Source: an uncultured Opitutia bacterium (GTDB lineage: Bacteria; Verrucomicrobiota; Verrucomicrobiia; Opitutales; Opitutaceae). Taken from it: a DNA stretch of 64,000 nucleotides. Positions 2,274 through 63,831 of the stretch are shown here, one piece after another. Where the stretch lies: contig CAIJZY010000031.1 of the NCBI GenBank assembly GCA_903825285.1, positions 1 to 64,000 on the forward strand, read 5' to 3'. Numbering within the stretch: the stretch's first letter is position 1; every line of letters starts with the position of its first letter. The notes beneath the pieces were generated by a model. The model had not been told where the DNA came from, did no database searches, and saw only the letters and a program-made list of their open reading frames with translations. A program made the position numbers and the translations under genes.

Positions 2274-3539
2274 CTATTTCGTCGGCAGCGGTTTCAGCAG
2301 CGCGAACTTGCCGCTGGCGGCCGGGGCGATCACGCGGCGGCGGAAAGCGTTCACGCGCACGGTCGGACCCAGCAGGTTCGCCAGCGCGGTCTCGACCGCC
2401 GCATGCGGCCGCGTCTCGTCCGCGACATAATGGAAGTCCCAGCGCCGCTCCCCGGTCTGCACGAGCGAATAGTGCCAGCACGCGAAGTCCGCCGGCAGCG
2501 CGGCGTCGACGTCCGTCGGCGACACGAGCGAGCCATCGGGCCGGAAGTACAGGTTGCCCTCGCGGCCCAGCAGGCGGAAGCCCGTGGGAAACTGCTGCAC
2601 GATGTCGCCGGTGTGGTAGCGCAGCAGCGGCATCGCCTCGCGGTCGCGGGTGGTCACGTGGATCTGGAACACGCCGGGCAGCTCCGCCCGCCACGGCACC
2701 AGCTCGATGAAGGCGTTGGCGTCGATGACCCGCGAGTTGTCGCGGAAGGCCTCGCCGACAAACAGGTAGCCGGCCTCGGTCGAGCCGTAGAGGTCGACCT
2801 GCGGCGCGGGGAACGCCTCGGCGAGGCGCGCGCCGTGCTGGGCGCTGGCCTTGCCGTAGGTGAGGATCACGGCGCGGATGCTCGGCACGCGCACGCCGCG
2901 CTTCTGCGCGGCCCGCGCGAGCAGCGCGAGGTAGACGGGCTCGCCCTCGATCACCTCGGGCTTCGTCGCCTGCAGCTCCACCACGATGCGGTCCCACTCC
3001 GACTCGGGGAACGAAAACGGATCACTGGACAGGTTCAGGTAGACCGTGCCGTTGAAATAGCGGTGCGGGAACGGATGATCCTCATACGGGCAGAGGTTGC
3101 TCGAGCAGCCGACGGGCGCGAGGACGCACTTGCGGTAGGGCCGGCCGGCGAACTCGCGCAGGATCGGCGAGGCCTGGTAGGCGCGCTCCGTCTGGCGGTC
3201 CCACCAGCCCTCCTCCATGATCACCGTCATGGGCGACTGCGTCGTGCCGCCGGTGCTCTCGTACTCGAAGCGCTTGGTCTGCAGCCCGCGGTCCACCTCG
3301 GCGTAGTCCGCGAAGAACGCTTGGTGCCCGCGCTGGACGATCTCCTGCTTCGAGAGCGCCGGGATGTCCTGGTAGCAGGACCAGCGCAGCGGGTTCGGGT
3401 GCAGCGGGAAGCGCTGCGCGTACAACGGGCTGCGCGCGTAGATCTTCCGGATCTCGCCCTCCAGCAACGCCGGCACGCGGTCCCCGGAGATGACGGGGCC
3501 GAGCGACTCGCGGGCGTTGGCAAACAGGGGGGCGGACAT
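2274..3539 (-). CDS. phenylacetate-CoA ligase/PaaK-like adenylate-forming enzyme
   Basis: 421 aa; FEYESTGGTTQSPM and DLYGSTEAGYLF motifs typical of AMP-forming ligases, plus LLRYHTGDIVQ. Confidence 0.7.
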   Translation of the reverse strand: MSAPLFANARESLGPVISGDRVPALLEGEIRKIYARSPLYAQRFPLHPNPLRWSCYQDIPALSKQEIVQRGHQAFFADYAEVDRGLQTKRFEYESTGGTTQSPMTVIMEEGWWDRQTERAYQASPILREFAGRPYRKCVLAPVGCSSNLCPYEDHPFPHRYFNGTVYLNLSSDPFSFPESEWDRIVVELQATKPEVIEGEPVYLALLARAAQKRGVRVPSIRAVILTYGKASAQHGARLAEAFPAPQVDLYGSTEAGYLFVGEAFRDNSRVIDANAFIELVPWRAELPGVFQIHVTTRDREAMPLLRYHTGDIVQQFPTGFRLLGREGNLYFRPDGSLVSPTDVDAALPADFACWHYSLVQTGERRWDFHYVADETRPHAAVETALANLLGPTVRVNAFRRRVIAPAASGKFALLKPLPTK

Positions 3540-3719: not shown

Positions 3720-4298
3720 TCAGCCGCGCGGCTTCAGCCGCGTCCGCCAGTGCTGCTCGAAGAACAGCAGGGCATCCAGCACGAGGCCGTGTGTGATGCC
3801 GCCGGCGTGGGCGAGCGCGAGCACGTCCTCGACCGGCTGCGTGGAGATCTCGATCTCCTCGTCGGCGTCCCATTCCGTCGCGGTGGCGGCGACGGCCTGC
3901 TCGACGAGGACGAAGTGGCAGCGGTTGCTCTGGATGGCGGGATTGGGATGCACGCTGCCCATCAGCCGCGCGGGCGCGCCGGCGAAGCCGGTCTCCTCGC
4001 GCAGCTCGCGCAGTCCCGCCAGCACGGGATCCTCGCCGCGCTCCATCACGCCGCCGGGGATCTCGAGCGAGAAGCCGTCGATGCCGAAGCGGAACTGCCG
4101 CACGAGCACGATGCGCTGGTCGGGCGTGAGGGCCACGACGTTCACCCAGTCCGGCGGGTGGGCGATGACGAAGTCGCGCTCCGTCTCGCGCACCGGGTGG
4201 CGGTAGCGCGTGCTGTGCAGGTCGAACACGCGCGTCTGCGCGAGCGTCGTGTGCGTGAGCTTCTGCCAGCGGGCGGGGCCGGGCGCGGGGGATTTCAT
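3720..4298 (-). CDS. NUDIX hydrolase (ADP-ribose pyrophosphatase-like)
   Basis: Nudix box GGVMERGEDPVLAGLRELREETGFAG; start ATG at 4298 (MKSPAPG) preferred because the longer ORF runs into the LysM gene terminator. Confidence 0.88.
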   Translation of the reverse strand: MKSPAPGPARWQKLTHTTLAQTRVFDLHSTRYRHPVRETERDFVIAHPPDWVNVVALTPDQRIVLVRQFRFGIDGFSLEIPGGVMERGEDPVLAGLRELREETGFAGAPARLMGSVHPNPAIQSNRCHFVLVEQAVAATATEWDADEEIEISTQPVEDVLALAHAGGITHGLVLDALLFFEQHWRTRLKPRG

Positions 4299-4361: not shown

Positions 4362-4880
4362 TTACTTCTTCTGCGGCAGCTTGATCTTCTGGCCGACCTT
4401 CAGCTTGCTCGGGTTGACGTCGGGGTTGACCGCGGCGACCTCGGTGCCGGAGAAACCGCCGTGGGCGCGACCGATCTTGGCGAACGTGTCGCCGGCCTTG
4501 ATGACGTACTCGCCGGGACCGGCGACCACTTCACCGTGACCACCCTTGCCGCTGGCGGCGGGGCGCTTCTGCGCTTCCTCGAGCTTGACGATCGAGGCGT
4601 GAATGTTGGCGAGGTCGGCGGCGACGGTGTTGAACGCGTCCTGCGTCGTGCGCGACAGCGAGCCGATGTCCTTCGTCGATTTGTCGGCGGCGGCGGAGAC
4701 CGTGCCCAGTTGGGACTCAAGGCCGTCGACCTTGTCCACCTTCTCCTGATGGGCCGCGACCGTCTTCTGGAGGCTCGAGGCCTTGATGGCGCCGTAGCCA
4801 CCGACGATCAGGGCGAGCACGCCAACGATGACTCCTGCAACCGGAAGCATGCTATTATTTTCGCGAGAAATGGTATCCAT
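4362..4880 (-). CDS. membrane-anchored LysM-domain protein
   Basis: N-terminal TM helix (LPVAGVIVGVLALIVGGYGAI), coiled-coil middle, C-terminal LysM (YVIKAGDTFAKIGRAHG...NPDVNPSKLKVGQKIKLP). Confidence 0.85.
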   Translation of the reverse strand: MDTISRENNSMLPVAGVIVGVLALIVGGYGAIKASSLQKTVAAHQEKVDKVDGLESQLGTVSAAADKSTKDIGSLSRTTQDAFNTVAADLANIHASIVKLEEAQKRPAASGKGGHGEVVAGPGEYVIKAGDTFAKIGRAHGGFSGTEVAAVNPDVNPSKLKVGQKIKLPQKK

Positions 4881-5034: not shown

Positions 5035-5111
5035 CGGGGTGTAGCTTAGCCTGGTAGAGCGCCTGGTTTGGGACCAGGAGGTCGCGAGTTCGAATCTCGC
5101 CGCCCCGACCA
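5035..5111 (+). tRNA. tRNA-Pro(TGG), CCA encoded
   Basis: CGGGGTG...CCTGG-TTTGGGA-CCAGG...GCGAG-TTCGAAT-CTCGC-CGCCCCG-ACCA; cloverleaf stems pair by eye. Confidence 0.95.
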
Positions 5112-5112
5112 T
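5089..5112 (+). repeat. attL: 24-bp direct repeat within tRNA-Pro 3' end
   Basis: ttcgaatctcgccgccccgaccat, identical to 7193-7216. Confidence 0.85.
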
Positions 5113-5313
5113 TTTGAGGACGCGACAGAGAGCGTCAGAGCCCGACTAATCACGGCTCATGCGTGGGTTGCAAGAATTTCCCCTCCCGCCCCATCGCGAC
5201 ACCTTGCGACCCCAAACGACCCATTGCGGGTAAAATTTGGGTGCACTCTTGGGAGCACTCGCGCTCTTAAGCCAGAAGCTGCGCTGAACCGAGGTGATGT
5301 CGGGAATGCTGAA

Positions 5314-6732
5314 CTATTTCGGTTTTTTGCTCCCCGTTAAGCTTTTGGCTTTTTCCTCGTCCACCTTCGCACCTGCTTCGTCGCCTAGTTTGCGCCTGGC
5401 GTCGGCTCGATGCTGGTAGGCCTCGACCCGCTTGGGGTCGAGCGTGATGGCTTCAGTGAAATCGGCAACCGCCCCATTGAGGTCACCCTTGGCCGCCTTC
5501 GCATTGCCTCGGTTGTCGTAAGCCTCGGAATTCTTGGGGTTGAGTGTAATGGCCACAGTGCAATCAGCAATGGCACCATCATGATCCCCCTTGGCATTCT
5601 TTGAGTTGCCCCGGTTGTTGAAAGCTGCGGAAGACTTGGGATTGAGGTCGATGGCCTGTGTGCAGTCGGCAATAGCACCGTCATAATCACTCTTGGCGTG
5701 CTTAATGTACCCACGGTTACTGTAAGCCTCGGCATACTTGGGATTGATGGCGATGGCCCCGGTGAAATCTGCGATGGCTCCGTCTAGATCACCTTTGTAA
5801 TACTTCGACTGGCCGCGGCCGTTATAGGCAGCGGCATACTTGGGGCTTAGCGCAATGGCCACCGTGTAATCGGCAATGGCGCCGTCTTGATCACCCATGG
5901 CTTTCTTCGTACCGCCGCGTACGTGGTAGGCCCAGGCATTCTTGGGGTCGACAACAATGGCCTCGGTAAAGTCGGCAATGGCTCCGGCTTGATCGCCCTT
6001 GGTCATCTTCGTGATGCCTCGGTTGATGTAGGCATCAGTAAACTTGGGATTTAACACTATGACCTGCGTGTAGTCAGCAATGGCGCCATCTTGATTTCCT
6101 TTGGCCGCCTTCGAGAGGCCGCGGTTGTAATAGGCTTCGGGAACTTTGGGGTTGAGCGCAATCGTCTGCATGTAGTCAGCAATGGCACCATCTTGATCTC
6201 CCTTGGCCGCTTTCGCTAGGCCGCGGTTGTTGTAGGCATCGGCATACAGGGGATTGAGCGCAATCGTCTGGGTGTAGTCAGCAATGGCGCCATCTTGATC
6301 ACGCTTCTCCGCCTTAAGCAGGCCGCGGTTAAAGTAGGCTTCAAAGCCCTGCGGCTTGAGCGTAATCACCTGCGTGAAGTCGGCCATGGCGCCGTCTAGA
6401 TCGCCCTTGGCTTTCTTCCCGCGGCCGCGGGCGTAGTAGCCATCGGGATCGTTGGGTTGAAGCGTGATGTACTGCGTGTAGTCGGCTAGGGCTCCGTCTT
6501 GATCACCCTTGGCCGCCTTCGAGATGCCGCGGTTGTAGTAGGCGTCGGACAACTTGGGATTGAGTGTAATCGCCTGCGTGTAGTCAGCGATAGCCTCAGT
6601 ATAGTTGCCGTTTCCAACTTCCGTATTTCCTTTGGCGAGCAACTCATTTGCCGTCACAGCCAGCGCCTGCGTAGCGCCAACGGAAAAGACCAGTAGCAGG
6701 ACCACTCGCAGCAGGAGCGATTTCGGTTTCAT
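5314..6732 (-). CDS. secreted TPR-repeat protein (about 12 near-identical TPRs)
   Basis: 472 aa, signal peptide (LLLRVVLLLVFSVGATQALA), repeated 34-aa unit 'KGDxDGAIADYTQAIxLNPKxxxAYxNRGxxKxA'. Confidence 0.9.
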   Translation of the reverse strand: MKPKSLLLRVVLLLVFSVGATQALAVTANELLAKGNTEVGNGNYTEAIADYTQAITLNPKLSDAYYNRGISKAAKGDQDGALADYTQYITLQPNDPDGYYARGRGKKAKGDLDGAMADFTQVITLKPQGFEAYFNRGLLKAEKRDQDGAIADYTQTIALNPLYADAYNNRGLAKAAKGDQDGAIADYMQTIALNPKVPEAYYNRGLSKAAKGNQDGAIADYTQVIVLNPKFTDAYINRGITKMTKGDQAGAIADFTEAIVVDPKNAWAYHVRGGTKKAMGDQDGAIADYTVAIALSPKYAAAYNGRGQSKYYKGDLDGAIADFTGAIAINPKYAEAYSNRGYIKHAKSDYDGAIADCTQAIDLNPKSSAAFNNRGNSKNAKGDHDGAIADCTVAITLNPKNSEAYDNRGNAKAAKGDLNGAVADFTEAITLDPKRVEAYQHRADARRKLGDEAGAKVDEEKAKSLTGSKKPK

Positions 6733-6838
6733 GCTAAAGCGCAGAATAGAATCAGCCTCTAGTGGTGGCTAGCGGATTCTATCTCTTTAGCTTTAGCGCA
6801 CCTTATAGCTTATCATGGGGTGATCGTTTTTAGCGCAG

Positions 6839-7018
6839 TTATTGCGCCAGCTCCAAAATTGGCCCCCTTTGCCTGTTCCAAGGGAGCAGCTTGACGGCCG
6901 CACCTACCGGCCCTGTTAGCTGGGCAGCATCCATGTAGGTTTTCATGGTGAGCTTGAGATCACTGTGCCTCATCGCCTCCATCACCACACGAGGCTCAGT
7001 CCCACTTATGTCAAGACT
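6839..7018 (-). pseudogene. tyrosine recombinase/integrase C-terminal remnant
   Basis: Minus-strand in-frame 59 aa: SLDISGTEPRVVMEAMRHSDLKLTMKTYMDAAQLTGPVGAAVKLLPWNRQRGPILELAQ*; matches the box II 'MRHS...LTxxxYxD' of phage integrases; N-terminal and first catalytic residues missing. Confidence 0.8.
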
Positions 7019-7192
7019 AGCACTGCGGCGCGCGCCCCCAGTCCGATCCAGTTTGAAATGCCGAGGCGAGGATGGCCGACCGGGGAAAAGCGGGAATTAC
7101 CCGCGAGGAGGGAGCAGTCTTGGGAGCGTTGCATGGGAGCGTTTTGGTTAAAAACGCTCCTGTCCCGTCCTCTTACGCTCGGAGGCGGCTTT

Positions 7193-7216
7193 TTCGAATC
7201 TCGCCGCCCCGACCAT
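7193..7216 (+). repeat. attR: 24-bp duplicate of tRNA-Pro 3' end
   Basis: ttcgaatctcgccgccccgaccat; not preceded by the rest of a tRNA. Confidence 0.88.
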
Positions 7217-7292: not shown

Positions 7293-8021
7293 CTATTTGC
7301 CTGCTCCAGGCAGCTTTACGGCCGGTGAGGCTGCGGCGGGGGCGGCGGACGGCGGGAGGCTGGCGCGAAGTTGGAAGACGCGCTGGGTCCAGGGGCTCAT
7401 CGGGTCGAGCTGCATGATGAGGTCGGAATATTTCTGCACTTCGTCGGTCCGGCCGGCGATGCCGGCGAGGCTGGCCAGCTGATAACTGGCCTCGACGCGC
7501 GTGGCCAGGGCCTCGGTGGTGTCAGCGGCAAGAACCTTCAGCGCGAGCTCGCCATCGGCGGCGCGCCCGGCCTGCAGCTTGGACATCGCTAGGCCGAGCT
7601 TGGCGCGGCTGGCGAGCGGGCCGGCGGGGAGCGCGGCCATGGCTTCCTCGTAACCCGTCACGGCCTCGGCGGACTTGCCGGCGGCATAGGCCGCGTCGGC
7701 CAGCTGGAGACGGGCGACGCCCGCGAGCGTGTGGCCGGCATGCGCGCTGGCGAAAGACTTGAGCTTGTCCGGCGTCGTGGCCGCCGCGTACTCCTGCTCC
7801 GTGGCCAGTTCCTTCTGCGCCTGCAGGTAGTCCCAGCCGCCCTTGGCGAGGATGCCGAGCAGCACGAGGCCCACGCCGATCATCACGGTCTGGCCGTTCT
7901 GCGTCCAGTAGAGGCGCAGCCGATCCTCGAAGGTCAGGACCGGCGTGGTCGCATCCGCCGCGGCGGAATGATGGCGGTCACCGGCGGGCGTGGGAGCGGA
8001 GGGAGAGGCAGGCGTGGTCAT
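7293..8021 (-). CDS. TPR-like single-pass membrane protein (YfgM-like)
   Basis: MTTPASPSAPTPAGD...LTFEDRLRLYWTQNGQTVMIGVGLVLLGILAKGGWDYLQ followed by an Ala-rich helical repeat region; start ATG at 8021. Confidence 0.65.
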   Translation of the reverse strand: MTTPASPSAPTPAGDRHHSAAADATTPVLTFEDRLRLYWTQNGQTVMIGVGLVLLGILAKGGWDYLQAQKELATEQEYAAATTPDKLKSFASAHAGHTLAGVARLQLADAAYAAGKSAEAVTGYEEAMAALPAGPLASRAKLGLAMSKLQAGRAADGELALKVLAADTTEALATRVEASYQLASLAGIAGRTDEVQKYSDLIMQLDPMSPWTQRVFQLRASLPPSAAPAAASPAVKLPGAGK

Positions 8022-62838: not shown

Positions 62839-63831
62839 ATGCAAAACTCACAACAGACCGCCCGTGTCGGGCTCTTCTTCATCCTCGGCCTCGCCCTCAC
62901 CTGGGTCACCTTCGAGACCCTCAGCGGCGGCCGCGTCTTCAAGAACAAGGGCTACACGCTCATCGCGGGCTTCGAGAGCCTGAAGGAGCTGAAGGAGGGC
63001 GACGACGTCCGCATGGCCGGCGTGAAGGTCGGAGTCGTCGAGAAGACCCGCCTCGCCGGCCGCCGGGCCGAGGCCATCCTCCGCATCGAGGGCGACACGA
63101 AGATCCCCAGCGACGCCACCGCCAGCATCGTCATGGCCGGGCTTATCGGGACCAACTACATCGGCGTCGACCTCGGCTCGGCCGGCGTGCCGCCCCTCGC
63201 CCCCGGCTCCGAGATCCGCACCAAGGTCACGCCCGACATCAACGCGATCATGACCGAGCTGGGCAACCTGGGCCAGAAGCTGGAGGGCGCGCTCGGCGCC
63301 TTCGGCAACAGCATGAACGGCGACGGCCGGAATCCCGGGCTGTTCCAGAAGCTCGACCGGCTCGTGACGGAGAACGGCGAGCGCGTGAACACCACGATGA
63401 CCAACCTCCAGGAGATCACCACCAAGCTCAACCGCGGCGAGGGCACGCTCGGCAAGCTGGTCAACGACCCCGCGCTGCACGACGAGCTCGTCGCCGCCGT
63501 GGGCGAGATCAAGACGACCGCCACGCAGGCCCGCGTCTTCGTCACCGACGCACAGGGCCTGCTCGCCCAGGTGAAGACCGGCAAGGGTCCGCTTGGCACC
63601 CTGGTCTATGACGAGGCCGCCGCCAACGACCTCAAGGCCACCGTCGCCAACCTCCGCCAGGTCTCGGACAAGCTGGCCAAGGGCGAGGGCACGCTCGGCA
63701 AGCTCATCAACGACGACTCCCTCTTCACCTCCGCCCAGAGCACGCTGCGCAAGGCGGACCGCGCCATCGACGGCCTCGACGACTCCGGCCCCATCACGGC
63801 CGTGGGCATCGTGGCCAAGTCGCTGTTCTAA
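62839..63831 (+). CDS. mlaD: MCE-family (MlaD) substrate-binding protein
   Basis: N-terminal TM + MCE domain (FESLKELKEGDDVRMAGVKVGVVEKTRLAGRRAEAILRIEGDTKIPSDATASIVMAGLIGTNYIGVDLG); C-terminal repeated GEGTLGKL. Confidence 0.94.
   Translation: MQNSQQTARVGLFFILGLALTWVTFETLSGGRVFKNKGYTLIAGFESLKELKEGDDVRMAGVKVGVVEKTRLAGRRAEAILRIEGDTKIPSDATASIVMAGLIGTNYIGVDLGSAGVPPLAPGSEIRTKVTPDINAIMTELGNLGQKLEGALGAFGNSMNGDGRNPGLFQKLDRLVTENGERVNTTMTNLQEITTKLNRGEGTLGKLVNDPALHDELVAAVGEIKTTATQARVFVTDAQGLLAQVKTGKGPLGTLVYDEAAANDLKATVANLRQVSDKLAKGEGTLGKLINDDSLFTSAQSTLRKADRAIDGLDDSGPITAVGIVAKSLF

Follow-up and report, generated by a model that had tools for sequence, protein, structure and literature searches.

Classical CIMEs of Streptococcus, which measure 1.2-13 kb, keep their att sites and cargo and have lost their recombination genes (PMC7563491); they descend from conjugative or mobilizable elements, either ICE or IME (PMC7563491). 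The element described here lies within a window of 64,000 nucleotides, the whole stretch of DNA that was analysed, from an uncultured Opitutia bacterium. It resembles a CIME in being decayed and att-flanked and in carrying cargo without recombination genes: both att sites and the cargo are retained, and the genes for recombination and transfer are gone. As to origin, its relatives are without recognised conjugation genes, some of the longer ones encode a rolling-circle Rep, and the closest contain an integrase and an excisionase only. A helper integrated in tandem with it, a further point of contrast with CIMEs, was not observed. The Islander tRNA-gene islands, with size maxima of 13.6 and 39.9 kb (PMC4383910), are likewise marked at their ends by a regenerated tRNA gene and a displaced fragment of its 3' end (PMC4383910), but the window element is far smaller. 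The cryptic integrated elements of Thaumarchaeota bear integrases, mostly have no known transfer genes and reach down to 2.6 kb (PMC6563490). They are like the family to which the window element belongs in having an integrase and, in some cases, a rolling-circle Rep (PMC6563490), but they are archaeal, and we draw attention to the likeness without claiming kinship. By analogy only, MITEs also keep ends recognised by a recombinase whose gene has been lost, although the window element would depend on a site-specific tyrosine recombinase, has a tRNA target and carries a gene, and its mobilisation in trans is hypothetical. It is well supported that the window element is of a kind already known, the decayed mobile island, and a fairly ordinary one, of which this individual member is new.

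Table 1. Features of the tRNA-Pro element and its flanks, in window coordinates
Feature	Position	Strand	Basis
Conserved host gene with LysM domain (left flank)	4362..4880	-	Pfam LysM; syntenic in genus
tRNA-Pro(TGG), target gene, intact	5035..5111	+	ARAGORN
attL core, last 23 nt of tRNA plus one base	5089..5112	+	Exact 24-nt repeat with 7193-7216
Left end of element	5113..5313		Homologous to left ends of intact G136 element and G010:C75
Two putative arm-type integrase sites (TTGGGNRC) spaced 12 bp apart	5237-5244, 5249-5256	+	Motif match to L146, L148
Cargo gene, 472 aa, ~12 TPR repeats of 34 aa	5314..6732	-	Pfam TPR_11 1.6e-78
C-terminal 57 aa of tyrosine integrase, remainder of gene gone	6839..7012	-	Full-length homologues
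Right end of element, no excisionase detected	7013..7192		Right-end alignments
Putative arm-type sites TTGGGAGC and degenerate ATGGGAGC	7120-7127, 7133-7140	+	Correspond to L146 pair
Palindrome AGCGTTTT-ggtta-AAAACGCT	7138..7158		Similar one in L146 (G136) right end
attR core, no tRNA before it	7193..7216	+	Exact 24-nt repeat, ARAGORN
Conserved host gene with TPR_21 domain (right flank)	7293..8021	-	Pfam TPR_21

A first-pass annotation had proposed that the end of tRNA-Pro recurs downstream without a tRNA, and ARAGORN together with an exact repeat bears this out: the core TTCGAATCTCGCCGCCCCGACCAT is present at both places without a mismatch, so that the 3' end of the tRNA is directly repeated at the two boundaries of an element with a total length of 2,104 bp (Table 1). 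Direct 20-mer repeats are scarce in the 64 kb, being limited to the att pair, a stretch within the TPR gene and a further repeat at about 63.4-63.7 kb, and coincidence is a negligible source of the att pair. An extension of the att repeat to 36 nt, with 86% identity, was set aside as not meaningful. The AT-richer interior noted in the first pass is also confirmed, with a GC content of 56.2% in the element vs. 67.5% in the left flank, 69.7% in the 10 kb to the right and 68.9% in the whole window; an equally low GC was reached in only 2 of 620 sliding 2,080-bp windows, both of which probably overlap the element. The further repeat, at 63436-63705, is an exact pair of at least 20 nt whose copies are 246 bp apart.

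Empty sites, which the annotation had suggested looking for in sister genomes, are present in two members of the genus (G006 and G001). In both, tRNA-Pro(TGG) is followed after 60 bp by the TPR_21 gene, with no second tRNA tail, and the neighbours on the left are those of the window (2274-3539, NUDIX and LysM genes). The TPR_21 gene itself is present in 11 of the 12 genomes compared within the genus. In G007 the locus holds a gap of ~830 bp with no repeat, and G008, G009 and G011 differ in their content at the same interval, which is therefore variable in general; the contigs of G002, G004, G005 and G010 break in or near it. G009 and G011 carry an RND pump and other inserts at the locus; these were considered and rejected as unrelated, no att repeat or integrase being seen there. 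In another genome (L039; G003:C19), an exact copy of the tail follows tRNA-Pro(TGG) after an 8.9-kb segment, and the flank on the LysM side is inverted beside this copy, an arrangement that reflects either an inversion or an assembly error. Conserved tRNA 3' ends, and orphan tRNA-Pro tails elsewhere in the genus, could in principle produce a 24-nt repeat by chance or through segmental duplication of a tRNA, with no integrative element involved. Such an origin is nevertheless extremely improbable here, as it is contradicted by the empty sites, by an intact integrase element with its own exact repeat at the same tRNA and by the ends that the two elements share.

The first-pass annotation had also read a 59-aa integrase C-terminus inside the repeats, of which the identity stands, on the strength of full-length homologues, and the length does not: the remnant has 57 aa on the minus strand, or 49 aa when counted from its first start codon, GTG. 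The HMM check proposed for it gave no support, as Pfam returned no integrase match for the remnant by itself, just a sub-threshold antitoxin domain, and full-length relatives were therefore used for the assignment. Within the genus, the remnant matched full integrases at 50-65% identity over 31-43 aa, and tRNA genes lie beside several of these. A search of 200 genomes of the wider family raised the identity of the best matches to 70-78%, and a tRNA-Pro gene lies nearby at 9 of the 12 loci inspected. Integrases adjoining tRNA-Pro genes, including that of the G136 element described below, are 77-78% identical to it over 45-47 aa, and the alignment with the 384-aa G136 protein covers residues 326-373. 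About 325 of the 384 residues (about 85%) are thus missing and only the C-terminus is left; because the integrase gene is not intact, we file the window element as a derivative and not as an autonomous element. Nor does it have the HTH_17 excisionase that stands next to the integrase in the int-xis family, as no excisionase homologue was matched in 5089-7216. Searches with the family integrase gave only distant matches among phage records (25-30% identity) and a single match, weak and partial, among viral contigs. With the site empty in sister genomes and the remnant matched to integrases, neither of the outcomes named in the annotation as refuting it was observed.

The intact counterpart is found in G136 (L146), a genome of the same family, at the syntenic tRNA-Pro(TGG) gene and with the same neighbours on both sides. 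There the tRNA tail TTCGAATCCTATCGCCCCGACCAT is repeated exactly (24 nt) 1,989 bp further on, and the element encodes an integrase and a small HTH_17 protein and nothing else. The integrase (384 aa; Phage_integrase 5.8e-12, with SAM-like domains) is directed toward the tRNA, and the HTH_17 protein (71 aa) matches a PHROGs excisionase family. The same layout recurs in G080 (tRNA-Pro CGG, ~2,032 bp), G053 (GGG, 2,033 bp) and G231 (CGG, 2,023 bp). We therefore consider, with a probability of roughly 0.87, that 5089-7216 is a non-autonomous derivative of mini integrative elements specific for tRNA-Pro. The first-pass view of an element reduced to one cargo gene holds as far as an att-flanked integrative element with a decayed integrase is concerned, but not in its assumption of a large parent: since intact relatives that occupy the same tRNA are equally small (1.99-2.03 kb), the element did not arise by shrinkage of a large island to 2 kb, and the change is better described as the loss of the recombination genes together with the gain of a cargo gene.

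The ends of the element tie it to these relatives. In local alignments, each scored against the best of 300 shuffles, the left end of the window element reached 41 with G136 (L146; best shuffle 24), 51 with G147 (L148; 23) and 100 with G010:C75 (24), and the right end reached 40 with the TGG element of G232 (L188; 23) and 30 with G136, slightly above the best shuffle of 26. Within the left ends, a pair of TTGGGNRC motifs is placed almost identically when counted in nucleotides from the att start (149/161 in the window, 148/160 in G136 and 151/163 in G147). At the right end, G136 has a pair at 1908/1920, again 12 bp apart, and the window element has one copy and a degenerate one 13 bp on. From their sequence and placement, these pairs may be arm-type integrase sites. 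Shared ends and the arm pair were recovered in comparisons with the TGG elements and one CGG element; the shared ends are unrecognisable against most other CGG and GGG elements. As most CGG and GGG elements are also without TTGGGNRC, the window element groups with the TGG elements and G147.

As the first pass had it, there is a single cargo gene, and this gene is intact (Table 1). Its TPR repeats follow a 102-nt period, visible in the DNA as a 102-nt repeat family, and the N-terminus of the protein, judged by eye, is likely a signal peptide. An intact homologue of 448 aa is encoded in G010:C75. The two proteins are 75% identical, with a dN of 0.15, a dS of 0.51 and a dN/dS of ~0.30, a ratio that the repeats make rough but which suggests that the cargo is under selection to be kept. 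A secreted or periplasmic TPR scaffold maintained by selection would fit these features. When named genomes were scanned for relatives of the TPR protein, the only matches were distant TPR proteins of unrelated phyla.

The G010:C75 block starts at the att boundary, spans the left end and the TPR gene at 79% identity and adjoins a tRNA-Leu gene away from any tRNA-Pro; it includes no integrase or right end. Such a pairing of left end and TPR gene could mean that the window segment consists of two tandem elements, a TPR cassette bringing its own left end plus a separate integrase relic, that fused after loss of an internal att copy. Tandems at tRNA-Pro do exist, with repeats at 3,960/5,992 bp in L195 and at 6,342/9,506 in L147, but no third att copy was seen between the TPR gene and the remnant, and both the length of 2,104 bp and the positions of the arm sites fit a single element, so we regard a fusion as unlikely. 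With a single derived element as the preferred reading, a parent of ~2 kb would have comprised, in order, the left att, the left arm sites, the integrase pointing toward the tRNA, the HTH_17 excisionase, the right arm sites and the right att. Most likely, its integrase recombined the tRNA 3' end borne by the element with the chromosomal tRNA-Pro gene, a reaction that would have made the tRNA whole again and turned the displaced 24-nt copy into attR. The TPR gene would have been gained in the interval from the left arm sites to the 3' end of the integrase gene, the excisionase and most of the integrase would have been lost, and both att cores and both putative arm sets would have been kept. No element with the TPR gene and a complete integrase was found, and the route by which the gene entered is for that reason proposed by inference only.

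The window element is probably immobile by itself. Because cores and arms remain, it could be a substrate for a related integrase acting in trans, and it could also be carried out by a relative integrated in tandem (accretion). It is nonetheless rather probable that the segment recombines no more and persists because its TPR gene helps the host, a reading about what the segment does today that does not conflict with the origin favoured above. The integrase and excisionase are gone, and the source genome, which is 96% complete, has no close family integrase elsewhere (the best match is 35% over part of the protein). Against this, both 24-nt cores are identical and both arm regions are recognisable, which a young insertion could also explain.

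Integrase matches (E <=1e-25) occur in 66 of 252 family genomes and 26 of 49 genera, and at 23 of the 30 best loci the integrase has a tRNA-Pro, -Gly(GCC), -Ala or -Met gene in its vicinity. Sixteen relatives are bounded by a repeat of the tRNA tail, exact or with one mismatch in 15 and with two mismatches in one, and range from 1,989 to 7,709 bp; an excisionase homologue is present in 13 of them. The longer relatives (2.8-7.7 kb) carry extra cargo and, in several cases, a rolling-circle Rep. L189, L191, L195, L197 and others are bounded elements of 3-8 kb at tRNA-Pro or tRNA-Gly with an integrase, a Rep and varied cargo, usually accompanied by the excisionase. Some of the Reps are of the REP_ORF2-G2P type (Pfam 2.7e-11, 1.7e-9 and 3.4e-9), and a single one was compared with Reps of plasmids of 0.7-2.1 kb, with which it shares about 46-55% identity. 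The Reps of the longer elements are related to those of tiny enteric and Aeromonas plasmids. Their sequences suggest, as a lead rather than a finding, that the fuller elements may be integrated rolling-circle plasmids. A scheme in which lineage-wide mini rolling-circle plasmids, equipped with integrase, excisionase and Rep and integrated at tRNA-Pro or tRNA-Gly, gave rise to 2.0-kb int-xis elements and these in turn to cargo-only derivatives moved in trans is conceivable but doubtful. We found no description of the int-xis family within the limited set of papers searched. At one tRNA locus, an intact relative, an empty site and a cargo-bearing derivative can all be compared, and together they appear to show a minimal int-xis element turning into an att-flanked gene carrier at unchanged size. 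The 16 precisely bounded small elements vary naturally in their size, the anticodon of their target and their cargo, and the family is useful for asking how near-geneless elements persist and move.

Several further arrangements were seen at tRNA-Pro genes. L201 (G087) is a 7.7-kb element at tRNA-Pro(TGG) with 43% GC, in which a 1,312-aa ORF between integrase and Rep begins, by eye, like a SIR2-type defence protein. In L147 (G080:C1:3103000-3122900), tRNA-Pro(GGG) is followed by a tandem array in which, within ~12 kb, the tail recurs exactly twice more alongside five integrase pieces. The source genome has a second tRNA-Pro island, at tRNA-Pro(GGG) (G000:C46:45265-50795; L054 3269-8796), of ~5.45 kb and 59% GC with an exact 24-nt tail repeat; its genes look by eye like HipA and an XRE partner and like a HepT/MntA-type pair, and no integrase was seen. 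In the source genome, G002, G009 and G010, the TGG tRNA (5035-5111 in the window, and loci L035, L037 and L038) has a 3' end like that of tRNA-Pro(CGG) and a T-stem changed to match, and other genus members have a different T-stem. The window sequence directly 3' of tRNA-Pro(TGG) is also similar to the CGG 3' flank, and this likeness between the two genes suggests that an exchange between tRNA-Pro genes may have taken place.
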